Below are positions 35,788 through 55,235 of a stretch of DNA of 64,000 nt, in pieces (position 1 is the first letter of the stretch; the number at the start of each line of letters is the position of its first letter). The DNA comes from Nonomuraea aurantiaca (lineage in GTDB: Bacteria > Actinomycetota > Actinomycetes > Streptosporangiales > Streptosporangiaceae). A program made the translations under genes and the position numbers. The notes beneath the pieces are model-generated. The model was not told the DNA's origin and did no database searches. It saw only the letters and a list, made by a program, of their open reading frames with translations. The stretch covers positions 744,001-808,000 of the forward strand of contig NZ_JAIWNB010000001.1 in assembly GCF_020215705.1 (NCBI RefSeq), read 5' to 3'.

Positions 35788-35828
35788 TTGACAGCCGAAC
35801 TCCGGCGCAGTTACGGTCTGGACCGTAA
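35788..35828 (+). promoter_or_regulatory. Promoter with perfect GGTC-dyad operator, epimerase-like gene
   Basis: -35 TTGACA (35788-35793), 18 bp, -10 TACGGT (35812-35817). The operator TTACGGTCTGGACCGTAA (35811-35828) covers the -10 and start region with perfect 8-bp arms. It is the best copy of the six-site family. Confidence 0.85.
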
Positions 35829-35851
35829 ATGACGTAACGGAGGTAGACCGC

Positions 35852-36856
35852 GTGCGGACCACAGCGGAACTCGAGGAGCGGCTGGCGCGGCCGGGCGCCG
35901 CCCTCGTCGACGACCTGAGCAGGCTCGACGGCGACATCCTGATCCTCGGCGCGGGCGGCAAGCTCGGCCCGAGCCTGGTCCGGCTGGCGCTCAACGCCAC
36001 GCGTGGAGACCGGCGGATCATCGCGGTGTCCCGGTTCTCCGAACCCGGGCTGGCCCGGGCACTCCAGGACGACGGCGCCACCGTGGTGGCCGCCGACGTG
36101 GCCGACGAGGGGGCGCTGCGCGACCTGCCCGACGCGCCGAACGTGGTGTTCCTGGTCGGCGCCAAGTTCGGCACCGAGGGCCGGGAGCACGCCACCTGGT
36201 TCACCAACGCCTACCTGCCGGGCAGGGTCGCCGACAGGTTCAGGGACGCCAGGATCGCCGCCCTGTCCACCGGCAACGTCTACCCGCTGGTCCCCGTCGG
36301 CGGCGGCAGCACCGAGGGCTCGCCGACCGGGCCCGTCGGCGACTACGCGATGAGCTGCCTCGGCAGGGAGCGGGTGCTGTCGCACTTCGCGGAGGCGTAC
36401 GGCACGCGCATGTCGCTGCTGCGGCTCAACTACGCCGTCGAGCTGCGCTACGGCGTGCTCGTCGACCTGGCCGGGAAGATCCTGGCCGGGGAGCCGATCG
36501 ATCTGGCCACCGGCCAGGTCAACGTGGTCTGGCAGGGCTACGCCAACGAGGTCGTGCTCCGCTCGCTGCTGCTCGCCGAGTCGCCGCCGTACGTGCTCAA
36601 CGTGACCGGGCCCGAGCTGATCTCGGTCCGGCAGGCGGCGCTGGACCTCGGCGCGGCGCTGGGCAAGGAGCCGGTGTTCAGCGGCGAGGAGGCGCCCACC
36701 GCGCTGCTGTCGAACGCCGGCAAGTGCCACCGCCTGTTCGGCTACCCCGAGCTGACGCCCGCCGAGCTGATCGAGCACACGGCGCGCTGGGTGGCCGACG
36801 GCGGCCCGCTGCTCGGCAAGCCCACCAAGTTCGAACGCCGTGACGGCCGCTTCTAG
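35852..36856 (+). CDS. NAD(P)-dependent epimerase/dehydratase (extended SDR) family protein
   Basis: 334 residues, GTG start with CGGAGGTAG ahead. The Rossmann motif ILILGAGGKLGPSL (GxxGxxG) starts unusually late, near residue 30. ALSTGNVYPLV and GDYAMSCLGRERVL take the places of the Ser and YxxxK catalytic region; the canonical Tyr-x3-Lys is altered (YAMSCLG), so the catalysis may differ. Probably acts on a sugar or cyclitol derivative. First gene behind a GGTC-dyad promoter and followed closely by a DapA-superfamily gene. Confidence 0.85.
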   Translation: MRTTAELEERLARPGAALVDDLSRLDGDILILGAGGKLGPSLVRLALNATRGDRRIIAVSRFSEPGLARALQDDGATVVAADVADEGALRDLPDAPNVVFLVGAKFGTEGREHATWFTNAYLPGRVADRFRDARIAALSTGNVYPLVPVGGGSTEGSPTGPVGDYAMSCLGRERVLSHFAEAYGTRMSLLRLNYAVELRYGVLVDLAGKILAGEPIDLATGQVNVVWQGYANEVVLRSLLLAESPPYVLNVTGPELISVRQAALDLGAALGKEPVFSGEEAPTALLSNAGKCHRLFGYPELTPAELIEHTARWVADGGPLLGKPTKFERRDGRF

Positions 36857-36893
36857 CCGCGTGCCCGGCCCATTGACCCGAGGGGGATCCGAC

Positions 36894-37949
36894 GTGCTCA
36901 GCACGATTCCAGAGGCGCAGACGTCCGTGCGCGAGCTGTTCAGGCGCGGCCTGGTGATTCCGGCGCACCCGCTGGCGCTGACCGAGGACCGGAAGCTGGA
37001 CGAGCGCCGGCAGCGGGCGCTGACCCGCTACTACGTCGAGGCGGGCGCGGGCGGGCTGGCGGTGGGCGTGCACACCACGCAGTTCGCCATCCACGGCACC
37101 GACCTCCTGCCGCCGGTGCTGGAGCTGGCCGCGCGGACCGCGGGGGAGTACGAGCGCGAGGTGCTCCTGGTGGCGGGCGCGACCGGGTCCACGCGGCAGG
37201 CCGTGGCGGAGGCCGAGCTGGCCAGGTCGCTCGGCTACCACATGGTGCTGCTGAGCCCGTGCCGGGAGCTGGGCGAGGACGGGCTGATCGAGCGGGCGCG
37301 GGCGGTGGGCGAGGTGCTGCCGGTGATCGGCTTCTACCTGCAGACCGCGGTCGGCGGACGCCCCTTGTCGCGGAATTTCTGGACCAGGTTGGCGGCGATC
37401 GAGTCCGTGGTGGGCATCAAGGTCGCCCCCTTCGACCGCTATCGCACCCTCGACGTGCTCCACGGCGTGGTCCGGGCCGGTCGCGCGGCCGAGGTCGCCC
37501 TCTACACCGGCAACGACGACCACATCCTGGCCGATCTCGTCACCACCCACCGGGTCGTCGTGGACGGGCACGAGGTGGAGATCGAGTTCGTCGGCGGGCT
37601 GCTCGGTCAGTGGGCGGTATGGGTACGGCGGGCGGTCGAACTACTGGAGGAGGCCAAACTGGCCCGCTCGGGCGACAACACGGCCATGCGACGGCTGCTC
37701 ACCCTCGACGGCCACCTCACCGACGCCAACGCCGCCATCTTCGACTCGGCCAACGGCTTCCACGGCTGCATCCCCGGCATCCACGAGGTGCTGCGCCGCC
37801 AGGGGCTGCTGGCGGGCCGCTGGTGCCTGGACCCGGCGGAGGAGCTCTCACCGGGCCAGCTCGCGGAGCTCGACCGGGTCTGGGCCGCCTACCCCTGGCT
37901 ACGGGACGACGACTTCGTCAGCGCCGGTCTGTCGCGCTGGCTCGCCTGA
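36894..37949 (+). CDS. DapA-superfamily lyase/aldolase (first paralogue)
   Basis: 351 residues from GTG 36894 (GAGGGGGAT ahead); an in-frame start at 36840 overlaps the previous gene and is rejected. TIM-barrel pattern: RYYVEAGAGGLAVGVHTTQF, LLVAGATGSTRQAV, and SVVGIKVAPFDRY with the Schiff-base Lys176. The family (dihydrodipicolinate synthase, N-acetylneuraminate lyase, 2-keto-3-deoxysugar aldolases) splits or joins pyruvate-containing compounds. It is longer than typical (~300). It forms an operon with the SDR gene. Confidence 0.88.
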   Translation: MLSTIPEAQTSVRELFRRGLVIPAHPLALTEDRKLDERRQRALTRYYVEAGAGGLAVGVHTTQFAIHGTDLLPPVLELAARTAGEYEREVLLVAGATGSTRQAVAEAELARSLGYHMVLLSPCRELGEDGLIERARAVGEVLPVIGFYLQTAVGGRPLSRNFWTRLAAIESVVGIKVAPFDRYRTLDVLHGVVRAGRAAEVALYTGNDDHILADLVTTHRVVVDGHEVEIEFVGGLLGQWAVWVRRAVELLEEAKLARSGDNTAMRRLLTLDGHLTDANAAIFDSANGFHGCIPGIHEVLRRQGLLAGRWCLDPAEELSPGQLAELDRVWAAYPWLRDDDFVSAGLSRWLA

Positions 37950-37965
37950 TCCTCATGCGAGCCGG

Positions 37966-38034
37966 CGGCGCCGTCCCCGAGGCGGCCGTCCCCAAACCGG
38001 CCGTCCCCGAGTCAGCCGTCCCCGAGCCCGCCGC
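37966..38034. repeat. 15-bp tandem repeat between convergent genes
   Basis: GCCGTCCCC recurs at 37970, 37985, 38000 and 38015 (15-bp period), with a partial fifth unit. It begins 17 bp after the DapA-like stop and runs to the stop of the opposing regulator gene. Confidence 0.88.
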
Positions 38035-38035
38035 C

Positions 38036-39262
38036 TCAGAGTGTGAGGCGGTACAGGGTCAGGGGGCGGCCGCTGGAGCCGCTGGTGAGGTTGCCCGTGC
38101 GCTCGGCCAGTCCGGCCAGCTCCAGCCGGTGCAGCATGCGCCGGGCCGTGCGCTGCTGGACGTCGAGGCGGTCGGCGATCTCCCTGGTGGTGAGCGGCTC
38201 GTCGCCCGCCGCCGTCCGCGCCTCCAGCAGCCGCTCGATCGTCGCCACCGACAGCCCCACGCGGCGGGCGATGACCGAGAGGTTGCGCTCCGACTCCGGG
38301 ACCCCGGCCACCGACTCCAGGACGATGTCCGTGTCGGCGCGCAACGACAGCACCGCCGCGATGTCGCCGATGCGCCGGGCGCGGGCCAGGGCCCGGCGGG
38401 CCAGGCTCTCCGCCTCCGCCGCGCTGCGGCCCAGCCCGAAACCCACGCGTACCACCTGGTTCTGCGCCGCGAGGCGGCTCAGCATGGGCAGGCCGGTGAA
38501 GCCGCCCGTGGCGTCGTGCAGCGGGCCCCGGGTGGTGACCAGGAGGTGGGTGCCGCCCCGGAAGGCGGCCAGCGTGCCGCCCAGCGCGGTGGCCTCGCGC
38601 AGCAGCCCCTCCTCGTTCTCGACCTCGATCAGCCCGAGCGCGATCTGCGCGTCCTCCTGCGCCTGCCCCTCGGCGGTCAGCAGCAGCTGGCGCAGCGCCA
38701 CCCGGACCGAGTGGACGGAGGGCGCCAGGCGCAGCACGTGCATCTCGCCGCGCAGCGCCTCGTGCACCGAGCTCAGGCAGGTGATCACCGGATGGGCGGG
38801 GCCGCGCCGGTGGAAGGCGATCGCCTTCTTGGAGGTCATCTCCGGTCGGTAGGGCAGCGTCCTGAGCGTGTCGGCGGGCAGCCCGGCCTCGGCGAACGTG
38901 GCCACCACGTCGGCAGCGGGCAGCGTGTCGATCGACAGCCCGGTGACGTCCTGGCCCTCGTGCTGCAGGCGTACCAGGGCGCTGAGCAGCGTCGCGCCCG
39001 AGTAGTCGACGAACGCGGCGGCCCGGCTCAGCGCCTCGGCGTCACGGGAGAGCATGTACGGGACGATGCCGGTGAACAGCCACCCTTCCACGGCGGCGGC
39101 GTGCGCCTCGACGATCGCGGGCGCCTGCGACTCGTGGTCGTAGTCGAGGCGCAGCGCGGTGACACCGGGCTGCTCCTCGCAGATGGCCGCGACGTCGTCG
39201 ACCAGATCATGCGGGCCGACGACCCCGATGACGATTCCCACCCACGCCTCCCTCTCACTCAT
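38036..39262 (-). CDS. Three-domain transcriptional regulator, probable repressor of the GGTC-dyad regulon
   Basis: 408 residues from ATG 39262; the upstream open frame is a shadow. Residues 1-170 look like a small-molecule-sensing alpha/beta domain (VGIVIGVVGPHDLVDDVAAI). Residues 180-320 resemble a degenerate GGDEF/GTP-cyclohydrolase-III-type palm (VVRVGFGLGRSAAEAESLAR). Residues 325-408 hold two HTH-like units, the last a winged helix (LTTREIADRLDVQQRTARRMLHRLELAGL). Its own promoter carries the GGTC dyad next to the start codon, indicating autorepression. No named family is certain. Confidence 0.75.
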   Translation of the reverse strand: MSEREAWVGIVIGVVGPHDLVDDVAAICEEQPGVTALRLDYDHESQAPAIVEAHAAAVEGWLFTGIVPYMLSRDAEALSRAAAFVDYSGATLLSALVRLQHEGQDVTGLSIDTLPAADVVATFAEAGLPADTLRTLPYRPEMTSKKAIAFHRRGPAHPVITCLSSVHEALRGEMHVLRLAPSVHSVRVALRQLLLTAEGQAQEDAQIALGLIEVENEEGLLREATALGGTLAAFRGGTHLLVTTRGPLHDATGGFTGLPMLSRLAAQNQVVRVGFGLGRSAAEAESLARRALARARRIGDIAAVLSLRADTDIVLESVAGVPESERNLSVIARRVGLSVATIERLLEARTAAGDEPLTTREIADRLDVQQRTARRMLHRLELAGLAERTGNLTSGSSGRPLTLYRLTL

Positions 39263-39306
39263 TTCGGTCAAGACCGCAATTATATCTTGTGAGGTGCCCC
39301 TGTGAA
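39262..39306. promoter_or_regulatory. Divergent promoter region with GGTC-dyad operator, regulator / aminotransferase
   Basis: Operator TTTCGGTCAAGACCGCAA at 39262-39279. On the minus strand TTCACA (39306-39301), 16 bp, TATAAT (39284-39279) forms a strong promoter whose transcript starts inside the operator. The same site lies 23 bp upstream of the plus-strand aminotransferase start, with TATATC (39281-39286) as its possible -10. Confidence 0.82.
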
Positions 39307-40450
39307 GTTCCCGTCGATGGCCGAGGCCGCCGGCCGTACGCTCGGCGACGAGGAGGTGGCCGCCGCGGCGCGGGTGATCCGCTCGGGCATGCTCAGCTCC
39401 GTCTGGGGGACCGAGACGCGAGCGCTCGAACGCGAGGTAGCCGCACTGTACGGCGTGCGCCACGCGGTCGCGTGCAGCTCCGGCACCGCGGCCCTCCATC
39501 TGTCGGTCGTGGCGGCTGCGCCGGACCCCGGAGACGAGATCATCACGACGCCGATCACCGACTTCGGGACCGTGGCCCCCATCCTGGCGCAGAACGCGGT
39601 CCCTGTCTTCGCGGATGTAGATCCCTCGGACGGCAATCTCGACCCCGGTGCGGTGGCCAAGCTGATCGGCCCCCGGACTCGGGCGATCATGGCCGTGCAC
39701 CTGTTCGGCGCGCCCGCCCGGGTGGCCGAGCTGCGGGCGCTGGCCGACGAGCACGGCCTCGCGCTGATCGAGGACTGCGCCCAGGCGTGGCTCGCCGAGC
39801 TGCCGGACGGGCGGCCGGCGGGCACGGCGGGCGACGTCGCCACCCTCAGCCTGCAGCAGTGGAAGCACATCACCTGCGGCGACGGCGGCCTGGCGCTCAC
39901 CGAGGACGACGAGCTGGCGCGCCGCATGCGGCTGTTCGCCGACAAGGGCTGGGACCGGGCGGCCGGGCGCTCGCACGCCGGTTTCGGCCTGAACTACCGC
40001 ATGACCGAGCTGCAGGCCGCCGTGGCGCGGGCCCAGCTCGCCAAGCTGCCCGGCGTGGTCGCGGCCCGCCGGAGCACGGCCGTACGGCTGCTGGACGCCC
40101 TTCAGGGCCTGCCAGGGGTGCGGCTGCCGCGCCCGGAGGGGCACGCCTGGTGGCTGTTCCCCATCGTGCGGCCCGAGGGTGACGCCCGGGAGTTGGCCGC
40201 GCACCTGGCCGCGGCCGGGATACCCGCGCGGGCCGGCTACCTGGAGGAGCCGCTGAACCGCGCCCCGCTGTGGGATCGGCCCGTCTACGGCTCCGCGCGC
40301 TACCCGCTCGACGGCTACGTCCCGAACCCGTGTCCCGAGGCCGAACGCCTGGTCGCCGAGACGCTGCTGATCATCGACTGGAACGAGAACTACACGGCCG
40401 AGCACGCCGACGCCGTCGCCCGCGAGATCACCCGCTTCACCGCGAGTTGA
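39302..40450 (+). CDS. DegT/DnrJ/EryC1-family PLP aminotransferase (first paralogue)
   Basis: 382 residues, GTG start. Fold type I features: GSMLSSVWGTET-like substrate loop, CSSGTAALHLSV, DEIITTPITDFGTVAPIL, ALIEDCAQAW (Asp stacking PLP) and LQQWKHITCGDGG with the PLP lysine K188. The family transaminates keto-sugars, or makes 3-amino-5-hydroxybenzoate-like rings; run in reverse it deaminates aminosugars. Divergent from the regulator and just upstream of a sugar importer. A second paralogue is at 56772. Confidence 0.92.
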   Translation: MKFPSMAEAAGRTLGDEEVAAAARVIRSGMLSSVWGTETRALEREVAALYGVRHAVACSSGTAALHLSVVAAAPDPGDEIITTPITDFGTVAPILAQNAVPVFADVDPSDGNLDPGAVAKLIGPRTRAIMAVHLFGAPARVAELRALADEHGLALIEDCAQAWLAELPDGRPAGTAGDVATLSLQQWKHITCGDGGLALTEDDELARRMRLFADKGWDRAAGRSHAGFGLNYRMTELQAAVARAQLAKLPGVVAARRSTAVRLLDALQGLPGVRLPRPEGHAWWLFPIVRPEGDARELAAHLAAAGIPARAGYLEEPLNRAPLWDRPVYGSARYPLDGYVPNPCPEAERLVAETLLIIDWNENYTAEHADAVAREITRFTAS

Positions 40451-40484
40451 CCCGGTGACCGTAGTTACGTTCAGGTATCGCCCA

Positions 40485-40529
40485 TTGACCGCACGAGGTC
40501 CCGTCATTAGGTTTCGGTCAGGACCGGTA
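40485..40529 (+). promoter_or_regulatory. Promoter with GGTC-dyad operator, ABC importer
   Basis: -35 TTGACC (40485-40490), 17 bp, -10 TAGGTT (40508-40513), operator TTTCGGTCAGGACCGGTA (40512-40529) over the transcription start. It drives the solute-binding-protein gene at 40551. Confidence 0.83.
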
Positions 40530-40550
40530 TTACTCGAAAGGAATCCGCCG

Positions 40551-41792
40551 ATGAGGAAGACAGCGGCACTCGGCCTGGCGGCCACCCTGGCCCTCGCCGC
40601 CGCCGGGTGCGGATCCAGCGGCTCGGACAAGAGCACCGTGACCCTCTGGATGTACCCCGTCATCGGGGACCAGGCCAAGAGCCAGGCGTTCTGGGCCAAG
40701 GTCGAGAAGGACTTCGAGGCCAAGAACGCGTCGATCGACATCAAGATCGACCAGCAGCCGTGGGAGGGCCGTCAGGAGAAGGTCACCACGGCACTGGTCT
40801 CGAAGAAGGGCTTCGACCTCGTCGTCCTGGGGCCCGACCAGATCCCGCAGTACGCCCAGCAGGGCACCGTCGAGGCCGTCGACGACGTGGTGGGCAAGGA
40901 CAAGGCCTCCTACCTGCCCAGCGCGCTCACCGCGCTGACCGTGAACGGCAAGCTGTACGGCGTGCCGATCTACCAGACGATCACCGCGCCCATCTACAAC
41001 AAGAAGCTGTTCGCCGAGGCGGGCGTCGACAAGGTGCCCGAGACGCTGGCCGAGCTCAAGGCGGCGGCGCCCAAGCTGGCCGCCAAGAAGGTCGCCGTGC
41101 TCGACTACCCCGGCAAGCCCGAGGTCAGCCTCAACCAGAGCTTCTACCCCATCCTGTGGGCCAACGGCGGCAGCGTCTTCGCCCCCGACGGCAAGAAGGT
41201 GGCCTTCAACGGCCAGCAGGGCGTCGACAGCCTGCAGTTGCTGCTCGACCTGAAGGCCGCGGGCGGCCTGCCCGAGGACGCCGCCAGCAAGGGCAACGAG
41301 ATCGAGGGCGGCGCCCTGGCCAAGGGCAAGAGCGCGATGTACCACGCGGCCACCGCCCTGCAGGCCACCCAGCTCGGTGCCGCGATCGGCGCCGAGAACG
41401 TCGGCATCGGCCTGCCGCTGGAGGGCACCAAGCGGGTCGCGTTCGGCATCCCCGGCGCCCTGGTGCTGGCCAAGCACGCCGAGAACAAGGACGCGGCGAA
41501 GAAGTTCGCCACCTACCTGTCCTCGCCCGAGGTCGCCGCGAGCCTGGCCGCGGAGTCGGGCTTCTTCCCCGCCCGTACCGACGTGACCGTGCCGGGACAG
41601 TCGGCCGCGGCCACGGAGTTCGCCAAGTCGCTGCAGTACGCCTTCCCCGGTGACACCCACCCGAAGGCCCGCCAGGTGATGGGCGTCATCGCCCCGCACA
41701 TCCAGGCGGCCCTGCTCGGCAAGGAGGACGCGAAGACGGCGCTCGACGCGGCGGCCAAGGAGGCCGACGCGCTGCTGGGCAGCGGCGGATAG
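40551..41792 (+). CDS. Carbohydrate-type ABC transporter solute-binding lipoprotein
   Basis: 413 residues from ATG 40551 (GAAAGGAATCC ahead); an earlier frame start is a shadow. Lipobox LALAAAGC with Cys about 20. Family 1 extracellular solute-binding pattern: VTLWMYPVIGDQ, WEGRQEKVTTAL, DLVVLGPDQIPQYAQQG, LYGVPIYQTITAPIYNKKLF. It binds a sugar or related polyol outside the membrane and delivers it to the two permeases that follow. No ATPase gene is in the window, so a shared MsiK-type ATPase is likely. Confidence 0.93.
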   Translation: MRKTAALGLAATLALAAAGCGSSGSDKSTVTLWMYPVIGDQAKSQAFWAKVEKDFEAKNASIDIKIDQQPWEGRQEKVTTALVSKKGFDLVVLGPDQIPQYAQQGTVEAVDDVVGKDKASYLPSALTALTVNGKLYGVPIYQTITAPIYNKKLFAEAGVDKVPETLAELKAAAPKLAAKKVAVLDYPGKPEVSLNQSFYPILWANGGSVFAPDGKKVAFNGQQGVDSLQLLLDLKAAGGLPEDAASKGNEIEGGALAKGKSAMYHAATALQATQLGAAIGAENVGIGLPLEGTKRVAFGIPGALVLAKHAENKDAAKKFATYLSSPEVAASLAAESGFFPARTDVTVPGQSAAATEFAKSLQYAFPGDTHPKARQVMGVIAPHIQAALLGKEDAKTALDAAAKEADALLGSGG

Positions 41793-41794
41793 GG

Positions 41795-42661
41795 ATGCGC
41801 CAACGCCTGCGTGACCCGGTCACGGGCCTGCTGTTCGTGCTGCCCGTGCTGGTGCTCTTCCTGATCTTCCGGATCTTCCCCGCCCTCGGCGCGGCGGGGA
41901 TGAGCCTGACCAACTGGAACATCGGCGGGGAGTGGAGCTTCGTCGGCGCGGACAACTACGCCCGGCTGCTCGACGACACGATCTTCTGGACGAGCCTGCG
42001 CGTGACGCTCGTGTACGTGGCCGTCTATGTGCCGCTCACCCTGCTCGTGTCGCTGGGCACGGCGTTGCTGCTGAACCAGGTCGTGTTCCTGCGCGGCCTG
42101 TTCCGCGGCATGCTGTTCCTGCCGTACGTGACCAGCTTCGTGCTGGCGGGCGTCATCTGGCGGTGGATCTACGAGTTCGACGGCCTGATCAACGGCGTGC
42201 TGGGCAAGGCGGGGCTCGGCCCGGTGGCCTTCCTGGAGCAGTCGTCGCTGGTGCTGCCGGCCCTGGCCGTGGTGTCGGCCTGGAAGGGCTTCGGCTACTC
42301 GATGCTGATCCTGCTGGCCGGGCTGAAGGCGATTCCGGGCTCCTACCTGGAGGCGGCCCGGGTCGACGGGGCCTCGGCGTGGCAGCGCTTCCGCCGGATC
42401 ACGCTGCCGCTGCTGAAGCCCGCGCTCTTCTTCGTCCTGGTGATCGAGACGATCAGTGCCTTCCAGACCTTCGACACCGTCTACGTGATGACCGGTGGCG
42501 GTCCCGCCAGGGCCACCTACACCCTCATCTACGGCATCTACGACCACGGCTTCAGATCCTTCGACTTCGGCTACGCCGCCACGTGGGGGATGGTCCTGTT
42601 CGCCCTGGTGCTCATCGTGTCGCTGATCCAGCGCCGCTTCCTGGACCGGGGGAACACATGA
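41795..42661 (+). CDS. Carbohydrate ABC transporter permease (MalF/UgpA type)
   Basis: 288 residues with six membrane spans (first LLFVLPVLVLFLIFRIFPAL) and the EAA motif EAARVDGASAWQRFRRITLP. It starts 2 bp after the binding-protein stop and overlaps the next permease by 4 bp (ATGA). Forms the translocation pore with the second permease. Confidence 0.95.
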   Translation: MRQRLRDPVTGLLFVLPVLVLFLIFRIFPALGAAGMSLTNWNIGGEWSFVGADNYARLLDDTIFWTSLRVTLVYVAVYVPLTLLVSLGTALLLNQVVFLRGLFRGMLFLPYVTSFVLAGVIWRWIYEFDGLINGVLGKAGLGPVAFLEQSSLVLPALAVVSAWKGFGYSMLILLAGLKAIPGSYLEAARVDGASAWQRFRRITLPLLKPALFFVLVIETISAFQTFDTVYVMTGGGPARATYTLIYGIYDHGFRSFDFGYAATWGMVLFALVLIVSLIQRRFLDRGNT

Positions 42662-43467
42662 CGCGCACGCGGCAGAGATGGCCGCTCGTCGCGCTGCTCG
42701 GCGTGCTGTCGGTGCTGACCGTCAGCCCGTTCGCCGCCATGCTGGTCGTCGCGCTGTCGCCCGCGGGCGCGCCGACCCTGCCCGCGCAGTGGCCGGACTC
42801 GCTCACGCTCGACAACCTCACGCGGGTGCTGTCCGCCTCCGGCTTCGTGGGGTGGACGGTCAACTCGCTGGTGTACTCCGTGGTCTCGGTGGTGATCATC
42901 CTGCTCACCGCCTCGATGGCCGGGTACGCGTTCGCCAAGAAGCGCTTCCCCGGCCGCCAGGCGATGTTCTGGACGTTCCTCGCGACCATGATGGTGCCCT
43001 TCCAGGCCACCCTCATCCCGACGTTCGTGCTGGTCAACAGCCTGGACGGGGTGGACACGTTCTGGGGGCTGATCGTGCCGACGCTGGCCAACTCGCAGGC
43101 GGTGTTCCTGATGCGCCAGTTCATCATGGGGCTGCCCGACGAGCTGTTCGACGCGGCCAAGGTGGACGGCGCCTCCGAGCTGCGGGTCTACTGGACGATC
43201 GTGGTGCCGCTGACCCGGCCCGTCCTGGCCACGCTGGGCGTGTTCGTGTTCCTGTGGCACTGGAACGACTTCCTGTGGCCGCTGGTCGTGGGGCAGAGCG
43301 ACGCCACGCGTACGCTCACCGTCGGCCTGACCACGCTGCGGACCGAGGAGATGCAGCTGTCGGTGCTGATGGCGTCGGCGGCGATCTCCGTGGTGCCGTG
43401 CCTGCTGGTCTTCTTCCTGTTGCAGCGGTACCTGGTCAACAGCATCGCGATGACTGGGCTGAAATAA
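42658..43467 (+). CDS. Carbohydrate ABC transporter permease (MalG/UgpE type)
   Basis: 269 residues from ATG 42658; the long upstream frame is a shadow. Six membrane spans and the EAA motif DAAKVDGASELRVYWTIVVP, close to MalG-type permeases (LWHWNDFLWPLVV, end LVNSIAMTGLK). Last membrane component of the importer. The following DapA-like gene starts 10 bp later, so the operon continues. Confidence 0.95.
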   Translation: MTRTRQRWPLVALLGVLSVLTVSPFAAMLVVALSPAGAPTLPAQWPDSLTLDNLTRVLSASGFVGWTVNSLVYSVVSVVIILLTASMAGYAFAKKRFPGRQAMFWTFLATMMVPFQATLIPTFVLVNSLDGVDTFWGLIVPTLANSQAVFLMRQFIMGLPDELFDAAKVDGASELRVYWTIVVPLTRPVLATLGVFVFLWHWNDFLWPLVVGQSDATRTLTVGLTTLRTEEMQLSVLMASAAISVVPCLLVFFLLQRYLVNSIAMTGLK

Positions 43468-43477: not shown

Positions 43478-44365
43478 GTGGATATTTCGGCACAAGTCCT
43501 CCGTGATCGTCTTCGCGGCACGCTGCTCGCCGCCGCGGCCACCCCCATGACGGAGTCGGGCGAGGTGGACCTCGGCGTGGTGTCGCGCTACCTCGCCGGG
43601 CTGGTCGAGGACGGTGCAGACGGGCTGGCGGTGCTCGCGCACACCGGCCGCGGGCCGTACCTGACGCCGGACGTACGCGCCGCCGTGATCGAGCGCGCGG
43701 TCGCGCTCGGCGTGCCGGTCATCGTCGGCGTCGGCGGCGCGCCGGAACAGGCCGAGGAGGAGGCTCGGGTGGCCGCGAGCCTCGGCGCCGATGGCGTCCT
43801 CGTCTTCCCCACCGAGGGCGACCGGCTGGGCGGTCACGAGGCGATCTGGCGGGCGGCCGGCATCCCCATGATCGCCTTCGACCTCTACACCCGGCCCTGC
43901 CCGGCCGACACCATGCGGGACCTCCTCCGGCATCCCGGCGTGGCCGGGATCAAGACCGCGCTGCTGTCCGACGCCATGGGCTGCCAGCGCGCCATCACCC
44001 TCGCGAGGGAGACGGGCAGGCTGGCCATCACCGGTGAGGACCGCATGTTCGGCCCGTCGCTCCTGTGGGGCGCCGAGGCCGCGCTGGTGGGCCTGGCGGC
44101 CGCGTCGGTCTCCGTCACCGCCGGAGTCATGGCCGCCTACCGAGGTTCGGACCTGCGGGCCTTCGACGCGGCGTCGGGCCGCCTGGACCGCCTGGCCGCG
44201 GCCACCTTCACCGAGCCCATGGAGGGCTACGTGCAGCGCATGCTGTGGCTCGCGGCGGCCGAGGGCCGGATCCCGGAGTCCCACGCCCACGACCCCTACG
44301 GCCCGTCCCTGCCGGAGCAGGAACGGGCCGCGGTGGCGAGGGCGGGGGGCTACCTCGCCATGTAG
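43478..44365 (+). CDS. DapA-superfamily lyase/aldolase (second paralogue)
   Basis: 295 residues, the canonical family length. GTLLAAAATPMTESGEVDL, ADGLAVLAHTGRGPYLTP, GVPVIVGVGG and GVAGIKTALLSDAMG with the Schiff-base Lys159. GTG start 10 bp after the permease, so it is co-transcribed with the importer and probably acts on the imported compound or its product. It differs in length and loops from the first paralogue (36894), suggesting different steps. Its 3' end overlaps the opposing peptidase gene by 16 bp. Confidence 0.9.
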   Translation: MDISAQVLRDRLRGTLLAAAATPMTESGEVDLGVVSRYLAGLVEDGADGLAVLAHTGRGPYLTPDVRAAVIERAVALGVPVIVGVGGAPEQAEEEARVAASLGADGVLVFPTEGDRLGGHEAIWRAAGIPMIAFDLYTRPCPADTMRDLLRHPGVAGIKTALLSDAMGCQRAITLARETGRLAITGEDRMFGPSLLWGAEAALVGLAAASVSVTAGVMAAYRGSDLRAFDAASGRLDRLAAATFTEPMEGYVQRMLWLAAAEGRIPESHAHDPYGPSLPEQERAAVARAGGYLAM

Positions 44366-48473: not shown

Positions 48474-49442
48474 ATGCTCGAAGCGATCGGCCTGTCACCG
48501 GCCGAGAGCCGCCTGTACACGATGCTCGTCGAGAATCCGCGGTCATCGGCCGCCGAGCTCGCCACGCACTGCGGGGTGTCGACGCCGCTGGCCGCGCGCA
48601 CGCTCGCCGGATTCGCCCGGCGCGGTCTGGCCAGCCGCCTGCCCGGCCGCCGCGCCAGGTACGTGGCGGTCGCGCCGGACATCGCCATCCGGCCGATGCT
48701 CAGCCGCCAGGAGGAGGAGCTGCACCAGGTGCGGACGGCCATCCACGAGCTCACCACGTCGTTCCAGCGGGCCTCGCGCTACGCGGCGCATCCGGCCGAG
48801 CAGGTGGAGGTGGTCATGGGCACCGACAACATCATCAGCCGGGCGTACGCGCTCCAGGACAGCGCGCAGAGCATGTTCCGCAACATCGACAAGCCCCCGT
48901 ACGTCATGCCGGACCACTCGAACAACGTCGAGCGGGAGCAGCGGATGATCCAGGCGGGCATCGACTATCGCAGCGTCTACGACCTGGAGGTGCTGGCGAT
49001 GCCCGGCCGGCTGGAGCTGATCCAGGACGCGGCGGCGCGCGGCGAGAAGGCGCGCGTGGTGGCGGACGCGTCGGTGAAGATGTGGATCGCCGACGACGCG
49101 CTGGCGCTGATCCCCATCCGCAACGGAACCTACTCGATCGACGCGGCGTTCATCCTGCACCACTCGGCGCTGCTGGACGCGCTGATCGCGCTGTTCGAGC
49201 GGGAGTGGCTGCGCGGCTTCCCGTTACGCGCGGTGCCCCGGCCGCCCGCCGACGGTCCGGACGAGCTGGCCAGGGACCTGCTGGCGCTGATGGCCGGGGG
49301 ACTGACCGACGAGGGCATCGCGCGGGCGCTCGGGCTCGGGCTGCGTACCGTGCAGCGCCGCATTCACGACCTCATGCAGGACCTCAACGCCATCACCCGT
49401 TTTCAGGCGGGGATGGCGGCGAGGGAACGCGGCTGGATCTGA
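48474..49442 (+). CDS. TrmB-like/LuxR-type transcriptional regulator
   Basis: 322 residues. N-terminal winged helix of TrmB type (LSPAESRLYTMLVENPRSSAAELATHCGVS), a middle region with a phospholipase-D-like sensory pattern, and a C-terminal LuxR-like HTH (MAGGLTDEGIARALGLGLRTVQRRIHDLMQ). This two-HTH architecture is frequent in actinomycetes next to subtilases. It is divergent from the S8 peptidase and probably controls it. Confidence 0.85.
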   Translation: MLEAIGLSPAESRLYTMLVENPRSSAAELATHCGVSTPLAARTLAGFARRGLASRLPGRRARYVAVAPDIAIRPMLSRQEEELHQVRTAIHELTTSFQRASRYAAHPAEQVEVVMGTDNIISRAYALQDSAQSMFRNIDKPPYVMPDHSNNVEREQRMIQAGIDYRSVYDLEVLAMPGRLELIQDAAARGEKARVVADASVKMWIADDALALIPIRNGTYSIDAAFILHHSALLDALIALFEREWLRGFPLRAVPRPPADGPDELARDLLALMAGGLTDEGIARALGLGLRTVQRRIHDLMQDLNAITRFQAGMAARERGWI

Positions 49443-49474
49443 CTGGCTTGGCTCTTGGCTCTTGTTCTGACGGG

Positions 49475-51442
49475 TCAGCGGTGGCCTGAGATGGCGATGC
49501 GGACCAGGTCGCGGCCGCGCACGCCGTACAGGGCCTTGCCGGAGGGGTCCAGGGCCAGCTTGGGCTCGCCGCCGAACCACTGACCGGCCAGACCCTCGAC
49601 GATCGTCTTCGCCGTGAACGTGACCAGGTCCAGCTTGTACACCTTGTCGCCGTCGGTGCAGTAGGCGACGCGGCCGGTGACGAACAGCTCGCCGCCCTTG
49701 GCGCCCACCTTCAGCGTCCTGGTGACCTTCTTGCGGATCAGGTCGAACTCGAACACCTCACCCGTGCTCGCCATGCCGTACAAGGTGATCGGGCCCAGCG
49801 CGAGGGAGGAGATGGACCGCGCGCCCGCGATCGGCTCGATCTGCCACAGCAGCTTCCGCTTGACCAGGTCGAACGCCGCCAGCCTGGCGCTGGTGGTGAC
49901 GGGCGGCAGCCCGAGGCCCTCCTGGGTGGTGGTGCCGAGGTAGGCGGTGCCGAGGCGGGTGGCGACGGAGTAGACGGTCTGGCGCTCGACGGCGGGACGG
50001 TAGGTCTCGTACGTGCCGGTGCGCGGTGAGTAGAGCGACAGCGCGCCGTTCATGTGGCCGGGCTCCGGCTGCGTGGGCATCACGACCAGGCCCGTGCGCG
50101 CGTCATAGGCCAGGTCGCGCGGCCGGTCCTGCTGGTTGCCGGTACGCGCCAGCAGCTTCGGCTCCGCGTCGCCCGGCCGGTAGGAGTAGAGCGCGGCCTG
50201 GGTGTAGACGCCGAGGTAGGTGGTGCCGCCGACGGTCATCAGCGTCTTCGGCTCGCCCGAGATGCCCAGCCTGCTCACCTTGCCCGTGGCCAGGTCGTGG
50301 ACGTCGGCGCCGCCCTTGCCGCCCACGTAGACGCGGCGGCCGTCGGAGTGGACCGACATCGGCTCCTCCGGCGCCGCCTTGAGCCCGCGCTGCACCAGAT
50401 TGAGGTAGTCGAGGGTGCCCGTCGCCGGGTCGTACACGAAGACCGCGCTGTCCTGGATGCCGTAGACGCGCCCCTCGTGGGCCAGCAGCCGGTGCGTGAG
50501 CGCCTCGAAGTACGGCACGCCGAGCACTTCCAGCTTGCCCGTGGCCGGCTCGTAACGGTAGAAGGTGCCCGAGGGGCGGCCGGAGAAGTAGACGTGGCCG
50601 TCGTGGATCAGCACCGCGACGACGTACTTCTCACCCGGAGCCGTGGCCTTGACCACCTTGTAGTCGCCCGGCGCGGCCTTGTCGAGGACGACCAGCTCGG
50701 CGAGGGAGTTCATGCCGCCCGCTATGTGGGTGTCGGAGATGTTCATGCTCGACACCCAGTCACGGTCGGCCAGGGCGGCCGGGAGCAGCTCCCGCTTCTC
50801 GCCGGTCGCCCGGTCGATCGCGACGAGGTGGGCGTGGGAGCCGACGCCCGCGTAGACGTACTTGTCGTCGGCCTGGATGCTGCGTACGTACGCCTCGCCC
50901 GGGGCGGGCCGGCCCAGGTCGCGGCTGGTGCCCGTGGCCGGGTCGTACTCCCAGACGCGGCCCGGCTCCGACGTGCCCATGTAGACCTTGCCGTCGGGGG
51001 AGGAGGCCATGGTCCAGATGTAGTGGTCGGGATATTCGGCGACCTTCGTCACCTGTCCCGCGACGGTGTCGATGCGGTACAGGTCGGAACGGGCGTGCGT
51101 GCCCACGTAGACGTCGGTGCCCACCCGGCACATCGCCCAGACGCCCACGCCGGTGGGGATGTCGAAATGGGTGGTGACCGAATCCTTGGCCAGGTCGTAG
51201 GCGCCCACCACGTTGGGAGACAGGCCGCGGGAGCCCACGTACAGGACGCCGCCGACGAACTCACCGTTGCCCAGCGGGCTGGCGACGCTCGCGGGCCCGA
51301 GGCCGGTGACGGTGCCCTCGGGCTCGCGGCTGCTGGTCTCCTGGCCGGATCGGGCTTCGGCGGTCCGGGCCTGCATGACCGGTACGGCGGTGAGGGAGGC
51401 GGCCGCGGCGGCCGCTCGCAGGAAACGACGACGGGGGATCAT
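49475..51442 (-). CDS. Tat-exported beta-propeller protein (first paralogue)
   Basis: 655 residues. The start IPRRRFLRAAAAAASLTAVP is a twin-arginine signal. The mature part repeats propeller blades of the YVGTxxRSDLYRID / VYMGTSEPGRVWEYDP type; PQQ/WD40-like repeats with GTSxxxVWEYDPATG. Its paralogue at 53243 shares the C-terminal block PPVTTSARLAAFDLVKRKLLW. It may bind or process a ligand outside the cell. Its promoter carries a GGTC dyad (51478-51495). Downstream of two amidohydrolase genes on the same strand. Confidence 0.82.
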   Translation of the reverse strand: MIPRRRFLRAAAAAASLTAVPVMQARTAEARSGQETSSREPEGTVTGLGPASVASPLGNGEFVGGVLYVGSRGLSPNVVGAYDLAKDSVTTHFDIPTGVGVWAMCRVGTDVYVGTHARSDLYRIDTVAGQVTKVAEYPDHYIWTMASSPDGKVYMGTSEPGRVWEYDPATGTSRDLGRPAPGEAYVRSIQADDKYVYAGVGSHAHLVAIDRATGEKRELLPAALADRDWVSSMNISDTHIAGGMNSLAELVVLDKAAPGDYKVVKATAPGEKYVVAVLIHDGHVYFSGRPSGTFYRYEPATGKLEVLGVPYFEALTHRLLAHEGRVYGIQDSAVFVYDPATGTLDYLNLVQRGLKAAPEEPMSVHSDGRRVYVGGKGGADVHDLATGKVSRLGISGEPKTLMTVGGTTYLGVYTQAALYSYRPGDAEPKLLARTGNQQDRPRDLAYDARTGLVVMPTQPEPGHMNGALSLYSPRTGTYETYRPAVERQTVYSVATRLGTAYLGTTTQEGLGLPPVTTSARLAAFDLVKRKLLWQIEPIAGARSISSLALGPITLYGMASTGEVFEFDLIRKKVTRTLKVGAKGGELFVTGRVAYCTDGDKVYKLDLVTFTAKTIVEGLAGQWFGGEPKLALDPSGKALYGVRGRDLVRIAISGHR

Positions 51443-51473
51443 GTGCGGCTCCCTTGGTGAAGTTTCGCCGCAC

Positions 51474-51501
51474 GCTATAACGGCCCGGGCCGTAATGTCC
51501 A
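51474..51501 (-). promoter_or_regulatory. Promoter with GGTC-dyad operator, first beta-propeller gene
   Basis: On the minus strand TGGACA (51501-51496), 16 bp, TATAGC (51479-51474). The operator at 51478-51495 reads TTACGGCCCGGGCCGTTA on that strand, filling the space between the two elements. It starts 15 bp after the amidohydrolase stop. Confidence 0.75.
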
Positions 51502-51510
51502 GATCGGGCT

Positions 51511-52320
51511 TTAGGCCGTCTCCAGGCCGAACAGCTCAGCCGCGTTGCGCCACGCGATCCGCTCGGCCGTCTCGCCGGTGAGGTTCGCCGCGGCGACCGA
51601 GCCGAAGGCCGACGACGGGTCGATCAGCGTCGCGTCGGTGCCGAACAGCAGTTGGCGCGCGTCCACGTTCGCCGCCACCTCGGCGATGCGGCCCGCCGGG
51701 GCGTGGGACCAGCAGGGCTCCAAGTAGAGGCGGTCGCAGGCGCGGGCCGCCTCGATCGCGTACCGGAACCCGTCGGCGCCCATGTGCCCGGCGATCACCC
51801 GGAGCCCCGGCGTGTCGAGGCAGACCTGGGCCAGGTCGAGCACCGAGCGGCCCCAGGTGTGGACCAGCGCCGGGCAGCCGGCCGAGGCGACCAGTTCGAG
51901 GGCGTCGCGCAACTGGGGTGAGGTGGCGGGGGAGCCCGTGTAGTCGGTGTGGATCTTGACACCGACGAACCGGCCGGTCGGCAGGTATTCGGCCAGGTCC
52001 CGGACCGCCTCCTGGAGCCTGCGCGGATTGATAGTGACATAGCCGTACAACCGACCCCGGCCGCCTCCCCGCCCGCCGTCCGGGCTGTCTCCGCGCCCGT
52101 TGTCTGGGTCGCCTCCGCGCTCGCCGTTTTCGCCGTTTGCCTGGGCGTTCAGGGCCGTGGCCAGGGCGCGGTTGCCCGCCGGAGCGTCGTAGATGACCGC
52201 CTCGGTGGACGACACGATGGCCCGGTCGATGCCATAGCGGTCCATGGTGGCGAGGGTCGCCCCGGCCACGTCCATGGTGAAGAACCAGGGGCCCCAGTGG
52301 GCGTGGACATCGATGATCAT
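51511..52320 (-). CDS. Amidohydrolase (amidohydrolase_2 family), metal ligands intact
   Basis: 269 residues from ATG 52320, overlapping the preceding stop by 4 bp; the long upstream frame is a shadow. MIIDVHAHWG gives the HxH pair, VGVKIHTDY the strand-4 Lys/His, LVHTWGRS and VIAGHMGADG further His, and LLFGTDATLID the final Asp. All metal ligands of the TIM-barrel family are kept. Members hydrolyse lactones or amides, or decarboxylate. A Gly/Asp/Arg-rich insert of about 25 residues (near 86-112) looks like a slipped repeat. Confidence 0.9.
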   Translation of the reverse strand: MIIDVHAHWGPWFFTMDVAGATLATMDRYGIDRAIVSSTEAVIYDAPAGNRALATALNAQANGENGERGGDPDNGRGDSPDGGRGGGRGRLYGYVTINPRRLQEAVRDLAEYLPTGRFVGVKIHTDYTGSPATSPQLRDALELVASAGCPALVHTWGRSVLDLAQVCLDTPGLRVIAGHMGADGFRYAIEAARACDRLYLEPCWSHAPAGRIAEVAANVDARQLLFGTDATLIDPSSAFGSVAAANLTGETAERIAWRNAAELFGLETA

Positions 52321-53135
52321 CCGAGTAGCCTCCTGGCGTTGCCGCCCGCCACGGCGGCCACCTCGTCGGGCTTCAGGCCGCTGGTCGCCAGCCTGAGCAG
52401 CGGGACAATGGGTTCGTAGTGGGGGGTTCGTGAGCCGTACAGCAGTCGCTCGGCGCCGATCTCCGCGGCGACCGTCTCCAGCGCGTCGGGGGAGTTGAGC
52501 AGGCGGGTGGAGGTGTGGAAGCCGGGCTCGTCGGCGGCGGCCACCAGGAAGTCGCCCAGATGGTAGAAGTGCGTGTCGAGGAAGACCACCCTGGCCTCCA
52601 GCCCGGCGAACGGCTGCCAGAACCTGCGTACGTCGCCACCGGTCAGCACCGTCATGTCCAGCCGCGCCGCCCGACGGGCGACATGCCGCACTGACGGGAA
52701 AGCGGCCTCCACACCCTGTTCGTCCGGAAACAGCCGGACCGCCCGGACGCCCGCGGCCGCGAGACGGTCCATCTCCCGCCCCGCCCGCAAGGGGTCCCGC
52801 AGATCCACCACCCCGACCGGCACGAACGCCACCGGCGCTCCGGCCGTCGGCCCGCCTGGCGTCGCCCTTCCGTTGACCACCGCCAAGGCATCGGCCGCCG
52901 CCAGGTCGTCGGGCGCCGCCAGGGCGAGGGTCGCGTCGTTGCCCGAGCGTACGTCGAAGAGTGCCGCGCGCAGGCTCGCCACCGCCCCCGCCCGGATCCG
53001 GTGCGCCGCCAGCATCGCCCGTACGGTGGCCGGAGTCCCGGGCGGCCCGTCGCGGTCCGGGTAGGCGCCCACGAGCACGTCGACGTCCAGGGCCACCTCC
53101 AGCCCACCGATCAGCCCCCAAGCGTCGAACGCCAT
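52317..53135 (-). CDS. Degenerate amidohydrolase paralogue lacking metal ligands
   Basis: 272 residues from ATG 53135 (AAGGACAAGG ahead); ATGs at 53156 and 53171 are alternatives. The sequence follows the same TIM-barrel order as its neighbour, but HxH is replaced by FDAWGLIG, the strand-5 and -6 His by TVLTGGDVRR and VVFLDTHF, and the terminal Asp block by LLYGSRTPH. The catalytic metal site is gone. Overlap with the intact amidohydrolase suggests a regulatory or structural partner subunit. Possibly driven from the divergent region at 53.2 kb. Confidence 0.75.
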   Translation of the reverse strand: MAFDAWGLIGGLEVALDVDVLVGAYPDRDGPPGTPATVRAMLAAHRIRAGAVASLRAALFDVRSGNDATLALAAPDDLAAADALAVVNGRATPGGPTAGAPVAFVPVGVVDLRDPLRAGREMDRLAAAGVRAVRLFPDEQGVEAAFPSVRHVARRAARLDMTVLTGGDVRRFWQPFAGLEARVVFLDTHFYHLGDFLVAAADEPGFHTSTRLLNSPDALETVAAEIGAERLLYGSRTPHYEPIVPLLRLATSGLKPDEVAAVAGGNARRLLG

Positions 53136-53175
53136 ACCGGCCTTGTCCTTAATCGCCATGCGCCCAATCATGCCA

Positions 53176-53215
53176 TTGACGAACAGAGCGCATAAGATTA
53201 CGGTCGGGGCCATAA
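53176..53215 (+). promoter_or_regulatory. Promoter with GGTC-dyad operator in the divergent region at 53.2 kb
   Basis: -35 TTGACG (53176-53181), 17 bp, -10 TACGGT (53199-53204), operator TTACGGTCGGGGCCATAA (53198-53215). It drives the second beta-propeller gene; the same operator lies 63 bp upstream of the divergent degenerate amidohydrolase start and may control both. Confidence 0.82.
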
Positions 53216-53242
53216 TTGCTCAGAAATGAACGCGAGGCCCAC

Positions 53243-55216
53243 ATGCTCCGCTCACTCATGGTCGTCGTGGCCGGCCTGTTACCCGCCCTCCTCACAGCCC
53301 CCACCGCCGCCGTCGCCGCCACTGATTGTGCGAGCCCGGCGGTGGAGACGTTCGGACCGGCGTCGGTCACCGGCGCGATCGTCGGCGCCGTCGTCCACGA
53401 AGGACACGCCTACGTCGTCGAACGCGGACCCAAGCCGCCCGTACTGGCGGAGATCGACCTGGACACCCGCAAGGTCGTCAGGAGCGTCACGCTCCCCGAC
53501 GGCCCGGCCGCTGGTGAGGCGGAGGGTGGCTGGGCCACCGCCGTGTCCGGTGGCAAGATCTATGTCGGCACGTACCCGGTCCCCGACCTCTACAGCTTCG
53601 ACCCGGCGACGGGTGAGGTGAAGCGCCTGTACTCGTTCGGGAAGAACGGCGGTTTCGTCTGGAGCCTGACCGCGGCGCCCGACGGCACCCTCTACGCGGG
53701 GACGTACCCGGACGGCAAGGTCTGGGAGTACGTCCCCAGCACCGGCGCGGTCCGGAACTTCGGCGTACTGGCGCCCGGCGAGCGTTACGTCAGAGCCATC
53801 GCCGCGGACGCCGACCACGTCTACGCCGGTCTGCTCGACAAGGCCCAGCTCATGTCGATCGACCGGGCCACCGGCGCGGTCACGCGGCTCGCCACCGGCC
53901 CCACGGGGTTCGGCGCCGTCGCGGAGCACGGCGACCGCGTGTTCGCGGCCAGCGGCGGGACCCTCATCGACGTGCGCAAGGACGGCACCGACCTCCGGCA
54001 GCCCGCCCTGGCGGAGGGCAGCCTCGACATGCTCACGGTGGCCGCCGACGGCACGGTCTACGCCACCACCCGCCCGGACGGCGCCGTCTACCGCTACCGG
54101 TCCGGCGACGCCACGCTCACGAAGATCGCCGACCCGCCGTCCCTCGGCGACGAGACCAGGCGGCTGCAACTGCTCGACGACAACACCCTCTTCGGCGTCT
54201 CGGGCAGCGGTGGCATGTGGTGGCTCGACCTGCGGACGGGCAAGTCGGAGTTCGTGGACCTGATCGACGCCGGAATCCCCGCCGGCGCCGAACGGCCGCA
54301 GAGCATGCTGCTCGTGCCCAACCGCGCCCTCTACATCGGCGGGCACTTCTCGATGGAGGTCCGCGACCTGCGTACGGGCGCCAAGCGCAGGTTCCGCCTG
54401 CCCGGCGAGCCCAAGGACCTGGTGCGGCGCGGCAACAAGATCTACGCGGCGATGTACCCCAGCGGGCAGATCCTCTCCATCGACATCCGCACCGACCAGG
54501 TGCGCGGGCTCGGCTACCTGGGCCACGACCAGCAGCGGCCGTGGGACATCGAGTACGACCCGCTGACCGACAAGCTGCTGGTGGCCTCCGCGCCGCTCGG
54601 CGCCAAGCTGTCCGGCGCCCTGTCCGTGGTCGACCCGGACACCGGCAAGATGGACGTCTACGTGGACGTCATCCCCGGCCAGAGCCTGATGAGCCTCTCA
54701 CTGGGCGCCGGCGTCGTCTACCTGGGCGGCGACGTGCTCGGCGGCGGGGGCACCCCGCCGGTCAAGACCTCGGCGTCCGTGGCGGCGTTCGATCTGAGGA
54801 AGCGCAAGGTGCTCTGGCAGGTCGATCCCGTCGCCAATTTCCGTACGTTCCAGGACATCAAGGTGCACAACGGGCTCCTGTACGGGGTGTACAAGCGCGA
54901 CTCGGGCGCCTGGATCGCGATGAGCCTGGCCACCAAGAAGGTGGTCAGCCAGGGCAAGCTGGCCGGCTATGGCGAGCTGACCGTGCATCGGGGCAAGGTG
55001 TTCGTGTCCACCTTCTTCGGCGGCGGCAACGCCTACGAACTGGGCACCGACGCCAAGCTGCTGGCCACCGGCCTGGGCGACGAGTGGTACACCAATCCCC
55101 AGCTCCACTTCGAGCCCGGCAGCTGGCGTGCCTGGGCCCTGGTGGGCCGGAACCTGGCCCGGATCAGGCTCGACCCCGGCTGCCCGCCCTTGACCATCCC
55201 GGCGACCGCTGGCTAG
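53243..55216 (+). CDS. Secreted beta-propeller protein (second paralogue)
   Basis: 657 residues from ATG 53243; a TTG at 53216 lies inside the operator and is rejected. Sec signal peptide (MVVVAGLLPALLTAPTAAVA). Blades such as IYVGTYPVPDLYSFDPATG and LYAGTYPDGKVWEYVPSTG align with those of the 49475 protein, and PPVKTSASVAAFDLRKRKVLW matches its C-terminal block. The first paralogue uses Tat while this one uses Sec. Its 3' end contains the promoter of the next gene. Confidence 0.82.
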   Translation: MLRSLMVVVAGLLPALLTAPTAAVAATDCASPAVETFGPASVTGAIVGAVVHEGHAYVVERGPKPPVLAEIDLDTRKVVRSVTLPDGPAAGEAEGGWATAVSGGKIYVGTYPVPDLYSFDPATGEVKRLYSFGKNGGFVWSLTAAPDGTLYAGTYPDGKVWEYVPSTGAVRNFGVLAPGERYVRAIAADADHVYAGLLDKAQLMSIDRATGAVTRLATGPTGFGAVAEHGDRVFAASGGTLIDVRKDGTDLRQPALAEGSLDMLTVAADGTVYATTRPDGAVYRYRSGDATLTKIADPPSLGDETRRLQLLDDNTLFGVSGSGGMWWLDLRTGKSEFVDLIDAGIPAGAERPQSMLLVPNRALYIGGHFSMEVRDLRTGAKRRFRLPGEPKDLVRRGNKIYAAMYPSGQILSIDIRTDQVRGLGYLGHDQQRPWDIEYDPLTDKLLVASAPLGAKLSGALSVVDPDTGKMDVYVDVIPGQSLMSLSLGAGVVYLGGDVLGGGGTPPVKTSASVAAFDLRKRKVLWQVDPVANFRTFQDIKVHNGLLYGVYKRDSGAWIAMSLATKKVVSQGKLAGYGELTVHRGKVFVSTFFGGGNAYELGTDAKLLATGLGDEWYTNPQLHFEPGSWRAWALVGRNLARIRLDPGCPPLTIPATAG

Positions 55217-55235
55217 ATTTCGGTCTGTGCCGAAA
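55190..55235 (+). promoter_or_regulatory. Promoter with GGTC-dyad operator embedded in the propeller gene end; leaderless start
   Basis: -35 TTGACC (55190-55195), 18 bp, -10 TAGATT (55214-55219). The GTG at 55227 lies 7 bp after the -10, as in leaderless transcripts. The operator TTTCGGTCTGTGCCGAAA (55218-55235) covers the -10 end and the start codon. Confidence 0.8.

Follow-up and report, generated by a model that had tools for sequence, protein, structure and literature searches.

A conserved 18-bp dyad and a putative three-domain repressor in a carbohydrate-type gene cluster of Nonomuraea aurantiaca

We analyzed a stretch of 64,000 nucleotides from the 11.8-Mb genome of Nonomuraea aurantiaca (contig NZ_JAIWNB010000001.1, here C1, C1:744001-808000), called the window in the following. 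It carries a gene cluster with a sugar-type importer, several enzymes and a regulator. In a preliminary description of this DNA, an 18-bp inverted repeat (dyad; consensus TTWCGGTCN2GACCGWAA) was reported at six positions and proposed as the site of an autoregulated repressor. Comparison with related loci and genomes gives good support to the prediction of a local carbohydrate-type repressor with an unusual domain set, whose operators merge with predicted promoters and, at two of the targets, with start codons as well.

Dyads and genes of the cluster

All six dyads were located at the positions claimed, and only the one at 35811 matches the consensus exactly. In 100 shuffles of the window the mean was 0.26 matches and none reached 7. 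A seventh match at 42707 (3 mismatches) was dropped; it lies inside a permease gene and scores 13.5 bits, compared with 22-29 bits for the six dyads. The dyads and the promoters predicted from the sequence are listed here, where registers A and B denote two placements of the dyad on the promoter that are described below.

Dyad 1 (TTACGGTCTGGACCGTAA), 35811..35828, plus strand, register A, exact match: promoter of the epimerase/DHDPS operon, -10 within the left half-site; -35 TTGACA 35788..35793, -10 TACGGT 35812-35817, spacer 18 bp, plus strand, same offset among orthologues
Dyad 2, 39262..39279, unstranded, 1 mismatch: between the regulator gene (minus) and the aminotransferase gene (plus), putative autoregulatory site
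Dyad 3, 40512..40529, plus strand, register B, 2 mismatches: promoter of the solute-binding protein and permease genes; -35 TTGACC 40485..40490, -10 TAGGTT 40508-40513, spacer 17 bp, plus strand, offset -27/-28 in orthologues
Dyad 4, 51478..51495, minus strand, 3 mismatches: within the -35/-10 spacer of propA; -35 TGGACA 51496-51501, -10 TATAGC 51474-51479, spacer 16 bp, minus strand
Dyad 5, 53198..53215, unstranded, register A, 2 mismatches: common to propB (plus) and the amidohydrolase B gene (minus); -35 TTGACG 53176..53181, -10 TACGGT 53199-53204, spacer 17 bp, plus strand
Dyad 6, 55218..55235, plus strand, register B, 2 mismatches: encloses the GTG start codon of amidohydrolase C; -35 TTGACC 55190..55195, -10 TAGATT 55214-55219, spacer 18 bp, plus strand

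The genes of the cluster are the following.

35852..36856, plus: NAD-dependent epimerase-like protein, target (Pfam Epimerase; dyad-adjacent orthologue in Prescottella 54% identical)
36894..37949, plus: DHDPS-superfamily protein 1, target in the epimerase operon (Pfam DHDPS; Prescottella orthologue 58%)
38036..39262, minus: regulator, 408 aa, three domains, with orthologues
39302..40450, plus: DegT-family sugar aminotransferase, target (Pfam PF01041; PDB relatives)
40551..41792, plus: sugar-type solute-binding protein, target
41795..42661, plus: ABC permease 1
42658..43467, plus: ABC permease 2
43478..44365, plus: DHDPS-superfamily protein 2
44350-48342: subtilase
49475..51442, minus: propA, likely exported beta-propeller protein, target (Pfam; AlphaFold2 model with pLDDT 88.6, all-beta)
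51511..52320, minus: Amidohydro_2 protein A
52317..53147, minus: Amidohydro_2 protein B, divergent from propB, start codon provisional
53243..55216, plus: propB, likely exported beta-propeller protein, target (Pfam)
55227..55925, plus: Amidohydro_2 protein C, predicted leaderless start

Searches of Pfam, NCBIfam and the PDB with the cluster proteins returned families of sugar importers, sugar aminotransferases, aldolase-type enzymes and amidohydrolases, and no defined pathway or substrate. For the AlphaFold2 model of the propeller, the matches were many unrelated propellers.

Conservation of the dyad with regulator and targets

For the comparison, 60 loci were fetched by the regulator alone and scanned with a matrix built from the six window sites. 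The scan revealed 237 sites of at least 16 bits, against 0 with a first-order Markov null and 2 after mononucleotide shuffling. At 18 bits or more, 212 of 220 sites fall close to the estimated 5' end of a mapped regulon gene, in a range that begins 350 bp upstream of it and reaches 60 bp into the gene; the hydantoinase, GFO, subtilase and TrmB genes did not count as candidate targets in this mapping. A dyad precedes the regulator gene in 56 of 60 loci, the solute-binding protein gene in 45/45, the epimerase gene in 48/51 and propB in 15/16; the aminotransferase gene (49/52) shares its dyad with the regulator. In Micromonospora and Actinophytocola the gene order has changed, and the dyads accompany their genes. 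The expected conservation of the dyad together with the regulator and before orthologous targets is borne out by these loci and by the genomes of the genus and the family described next.

Co-occurrence of dyad and regulator was counted at no more than one mismatch in 54 genomes of the genus and in a sample of 200 genomes of the family, for which the regulator search lists 49 genomes under labels that agree with those of the dyad scan. The dyad was found in 46 of the 47 genus genomes with regulator and in 2 of 7 without (Fisher 3.8e-5), and for the family in 27/29 genomes with regulator (88 sites) versus 26/171 without (29 sites; Fisher 1.5e-16), both values overstating independence because the genomes are related. 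A reversed pattern, used as control, gave 0 sites in the genus genomes and 2 sites in the family sample. Six genomes of the genus g40 without regulator (G131, G210, G225, G229, G233 and G237) have single sites, for example TATCGGTCTCGACCGAAA and TTTCGGTCAGGACCGATA, which perhaps belong to another regulator.

Distant relatives of the regulator were also inspected. The genome G059 encodes a homologue of 44% identity, with an exact dyad whose end is 121 bp ahead of the match. On a Prescottella plasmid with a 41% identical homologue, one dyad with zero mismatches was found in 17 kb, located between an operon of the epimerase and DHDPS orthologues and a divergent operon containing the regulator homologue; among the three distant plasmid homologues examined, only this one bears a dyad. 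A paralogue of 31% identity in the N. aurantiaca genome has its own dyad (L009:7460-7478, C70), TTACGAACCTGGTTCGTAA, also written TTACGAAC, 9 nt before the start codon. This dyad is recognisable in all four close orthologues of the paralogue and shares the outer TTWCG/CGWAA with the regulator dyad, while the inner bases differ. Because of these distant cases and the sister dyad of the paralogue, the regulator family is the predicted binder of the dyad. Beside the paralogue lie genes that, by eye, resemble those of an ABC transporter; the same regulator family may have a second regulon here. A second paralogue (~32%; L010:6984-8393, C50) lies beside genes which, by eye, resemble purine biosynthesis and has no clear preceding dyad. 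On a Paenibacillus plasmid (L251), a gene annotated as NAD(P)-dependent oxidoreductase and a DHDPS-family gene lie at a distance of ~2-3 kb from a 26% homologue, which may indicate that the module predates the Actinomycetota.

The preliminary description had treated the regulon as one dispersed locus to which the matches would be confined. This did not hold, since the dyad is also present, and conserved in orthologues, at promoters elsewhere in the genome; the regulon is the cluster plus targets in trans. At up to two mismatches the genome contains 16 sites, of which 11, including 5 in the window, lie at regulon-like promoters. The level of up to three mismatches is noisy because it gives 94 sites compared with 29 for the reversed pattern. 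The candidate targets outside the window are as follows.

sec824, C1: two sites at up to two mismatches
propC and propD, likely exported propellers, C42: one site each
GDPD-family protein, likely exported, C35: one site
sec341, C51: one site, doubtful regulon member

The dyad is present at 19 of 19 sec824 orthologues and at 25 of 27 propC orthologues, one of the remaining two (L245) being cut by a contig end. It also precedes all 19 GDPD orthologues and none of the 11 examined paralogues of ~50% identity. All genomes with an orthologue of one of these three targets have the regulator, which is weak evidence alone (P 0.04, 0.04 and 0.005). In four loci from other species (L019, L048, L054 and L055), relatives of some trans-target genes lie within the regulator cluster or next to it. 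The other five sites at up to two mismatches were assigned to chance: four are inside predicted genes (L015, L016, L167 and L168), and the fifth (L166), 49 bases before a gene, has poor outer bases.

Some neighbors in the window do not take part in this pattern. A TrmB-like gene (48474) was considered as a source of the dyad's regulator and rejected, as it is present in only 2 of the 60 loci (L017 and L070) while the dyads are general. Relatives of the subtilase gene occur in 5/60 loci, and no dyad was found before either gene in the loci that have it. A hydantoinase A/B pair (window 30927-34734), located upstream of the cluster, is found with 80-98% identity in 20-21 of the 60 loci and has no preceding dyad.

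Fusion of dyads with predicted promoters and start codons

The position of the -35 element relative to the dyad is strongly restricted. Among 438 oriented flanks, TTGAC is located at exactly -23, -28, -27 and -22 from the dyad 53, 26, 24 and 21 times, compared with ~0.2 per position expected from the control; 30 further TTGAC at +8 belong to the dyad itself. Two registers can be distinguished. In register A the -35 is at -22/-23, the half-site reads TTACGGTC and the -10 TACGGT lies inside the dyad at a spacing of 17-18 bp. In register B the -35 is at -27/-28, the half-site reads TTTCGGTC and the -10 TAGNTT ends in the dyad, so that transcription is predicted to start at the dyad center. Position 3 of the dyad, W in the consensus, is A in 76/76 register A promoters and T in 54/55 register B promoters of the pooled set (76/76 and 55/57 with slightly wider offsets), many of these promoters being orthologous and hence not independent. 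The W of the consensus is explained by this, because the base follows the promoter register. In the window, the four pairs with TTGACA/C/G at 17-18 bp given in the preliminary description were found again; its placement of the dyad over or directly after the -10 has to be revised for 35811 and 53198, where the correctly spaced -10 (TACGGT) lies inside the dyad.

The promoter of propA follows another design. As had been described, dyad 51478 occupies the -35/-10 spacer, and 17 of 20 propA dyads fill the spacer with T[GA]GACA directly preceding. For the regulator gene, a promoter TTCACA-16-TATAAT had been proposed. Its -10 (TATAAT, 39279..39284, minus strand) is supported, as TANNNT ending at dyad position 1 is found in 42 of 54 orthologous loci. 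The conservation of the -35 does not count as independent evidence because TTCACA, read on the other strand, belongs to the first codons (GTGAAG) of the divergent aminotransferase gene. The contact between dyad and regulator start codon was also confirmed, position 39262 being both the first dyad base and the A of the ATG.

In two targets the start codon itself is part of the dyad, and the mRNAs are predicted to be leaderless. The ATG of propC corresponds to dyad positions 9-11 in all 25 dyad-bearing orthologues, and the frame continues with M[TAV]L into the basic stretch that opens a signal peptide. For amidohydrolase C, the proposal of a leaderless start under the dyad agrees with the GTG at 55227 inside dyad 55218. 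This GTG occupies dyad positions 10-12 in 9/9 occurrences (8 loci and the window; 13 loci have the gene) with an open frame, and in 3 of the 9 there is no other start codon ahead of a conserved DAHR-like motif.

The regulator, its proposed action and known systems

The regulator belongs to an uncharacterised actinobacterial family whose members are mostly annotated as hypothetical protein. The predicted model comprises a PrpR-N-like fold (residues 9-202), a degenerate GGDEF/cyclase-like fold (205-318) and a winged helix (324-406), with the helix-turn-helix at the C-terminal end (343-400). In column counts over 46 aligned rows, the GGDEF-like signature is GGTHL at 236-240. Cyclase activity is not predicted, because GGTHL replaces GG[DE]EF. 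Among the 50 structure-alignment matches listed, none was noticed that covers all three domains, an absence which is no proof. No publication on the regulator or the dyad was recognised by title and abstract opening, most subscription papers being outside reach.

With a probability of about 80%, the dyads lie on promoters of a likely carbohydrate cluster and a few distant genes, and the regulator binds them as a dimer, repressing the regulon and itself until it is released by a metabolite. We infer the binding protein, the dimer, the inducer and the pathway substrate, as well as repression and autoregulation, the latter two from the geometry of the sites. The dimer would occupy the dyads and keep RNA polymerase off the regulon promoters, and via dyad 39262 the regulator would limit its own synthesis. 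A likely pathway metabolite, bound by the PrpR-N-like domain, would release it. An external carbohydrate may be handled, imported by the ABC system and then passed through aldolase-type, aminotransferase and amidohydrolase-type steps. For the autoregulated repressor of the preliminary description, the promoter position of the sites and their co-conservation with the regulator fit. Beyond this cluster, we consider it somewhat probable that the family is a widespread, unnamed group of actinobacterial repressors, in which an 18-bp operator combines regulator site, -10 and sometimes a leaderless start codon, and in which two registers 5 bp apart, marked by one half-site base, set whether a transcript has a leader or starts at the dyad center.

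Several observations weigh against repression of this regulon by the cluster regulator. Some targets are often found without dyad, as it precedes amidohydrolase B in 25/37, propA in 20/29, amidohydrolase C in 9/13 and propC-like genes in 6/10 loci. In L061 and L062, dyads occur at other places of the cluster and none precedes the regulator. In L059 and L069 the regulator is kept without the cluster and without a preceding dyad of its own; these genes are possibly relics or regulators with new targets. At no more than one mismatch, no dyad was found in two family genomes (G056 and G077, of 29) and one genus genome (G007, of 47) with regulator. The homologues of Paenibacillus and Bacillus (25-26%) have no such dyad nearby, and among the wider kin of the paralogue four proteins at 59-63% have imperfect dyads only and one at 41% has none. 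With both orientations considered, a -35 of the searched kinds at the expected places, or one like that of propA, accompanies no more than 135 of the 219 dyads; many of the others are at regulator promoters, which mostly have none. Outside the cluster, the propC orthologue L244 has no dyad, inspection of the GDPD promoter by eye showed no TTGAC at the offset typical of the others, and sec341 is doubtful because only 2 of 3 close orthologues keep its dyad. The six window sites themselves served to build the matrix, and the relatedness of the loci means that the register counts, too, overstate independence. Finally, regulator-less family genomes have the site more often than the reversed pattern, so other proteins may use similar sites.

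This last point also bears on the possibility that an unlinked regulator, for example of the DasR type (GntR/HutC, with GGTC/GACC-like cores in its sites), binds the dyad and that the cluster regulator is a bystander. The core GGTCNNGACC resembles DasR-type sites, and a site is also present in 26 of the 171 family genomes that lack the regulator. We nevertheless regard such a binder as improbable, since dyad presence tracks the regulator down to the homologues of Prescottella (41%) and G059 (44%), and since the gene of the paralogue is itself preceded by a related dyad. Moreover, the 16-nt DasR consensus DSWGGWSTVVDCMHBN quoted in PMC9404778 is without the outer TTWCG/CGWAA.

Repression by the cluster regulator has also to be compared with other uses of the same sites. 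PrpR is an activator. The N-terminal fold of the regulator is that of the PrpR sensor, and on the aminotransferase side the dyad precedes the likely -10, as would suit an activator or dual regulator. Such a role is nevertheless unlikely: registers A and B put the dyad over the -10, the start point or the spacer, where a bound dimer would exclude the polymerase, and the -35 elements come close to the consensus, a trait of promoters that work without an activator. An action of the inverted repeats in RNA, as hairpins, attenuators or terminators, might be suggested by palindromes near start codons and is highly improbable. From the -10 positions, transcription is predicted to start inside the dyad, so that most transcripts hold it only partly, and the dyad is kept at divergent promoters and in a -35/-10 spacer.

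If the regulator acts as a repressor at these sites, an uncharacterised regulator family gains a predicted binding site, a list of about ten target promoters within a single genome and, from the fold, a guess at its mode of sensing. Likely exported beta-propeller proteins without known function would be tied to catabolic-type enzymes and the importer of a sugar. As a compact promoter architecture, the fused operator, -10 and start codon may serve expression work in actinobacteria.

Compared with PrpR (sensor structures 2pju and 2q5c), the regulator shares the PrpR-N sensor at the level of the fold, with 10-15% identity, and among the matches listed for the cluster proteins (25 of 31 Pfam rows) no PrpR_N row was found. 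It shows no sign of an AAA+/sigma-54 domain, only residues 205-318 lying between sensor and winged helix, and no AAA+ row is among the same matches. Its DNA-binding part is a winged helix, and it is predicted to repress at sigma-70-like promoters. Membership in the PrpR family was ruled out by this domain content. The middle domain resembles diguanylate cyclases (DgcZ, 4h54/3tvk) in fold and differs from them in its degenerate signature. In GntR/HutC regulators like DasR the winged helix is N-terminal, in contrast to the C-terminal one here, and the GntR match of the regulator in Pfam is weak (17.3 bits, under the cut-off of 27). The N-terminal helix-turn-helix of the LacI family is missing from the regulator, and LacI, UTRA and ROK rows are likewise absent among the matches listed.

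The system resembles DasR and its dre sites in combining an imperfect palindrome with a GG/C-rich core and a carbohydrate regulon in actinobacteria. It differs in the outer half-site, which the consensus quoted in PMC9404778 lacks, and in the protein family. With the local, autoregulated repressors of sugar clusters (LacI, GntR/HutC and ROK) it has in common the cluster-linked regulator, the divergent promoter, multiple palindromic sites over -10 or start, and a regulon of ABC sugar importer and catabolic-type genes. The regulator described here differs from these repressors in its domains: the winged helix is C-terminal, the sensor is PrpR-N-like and the middle domain resembles GGDEF.

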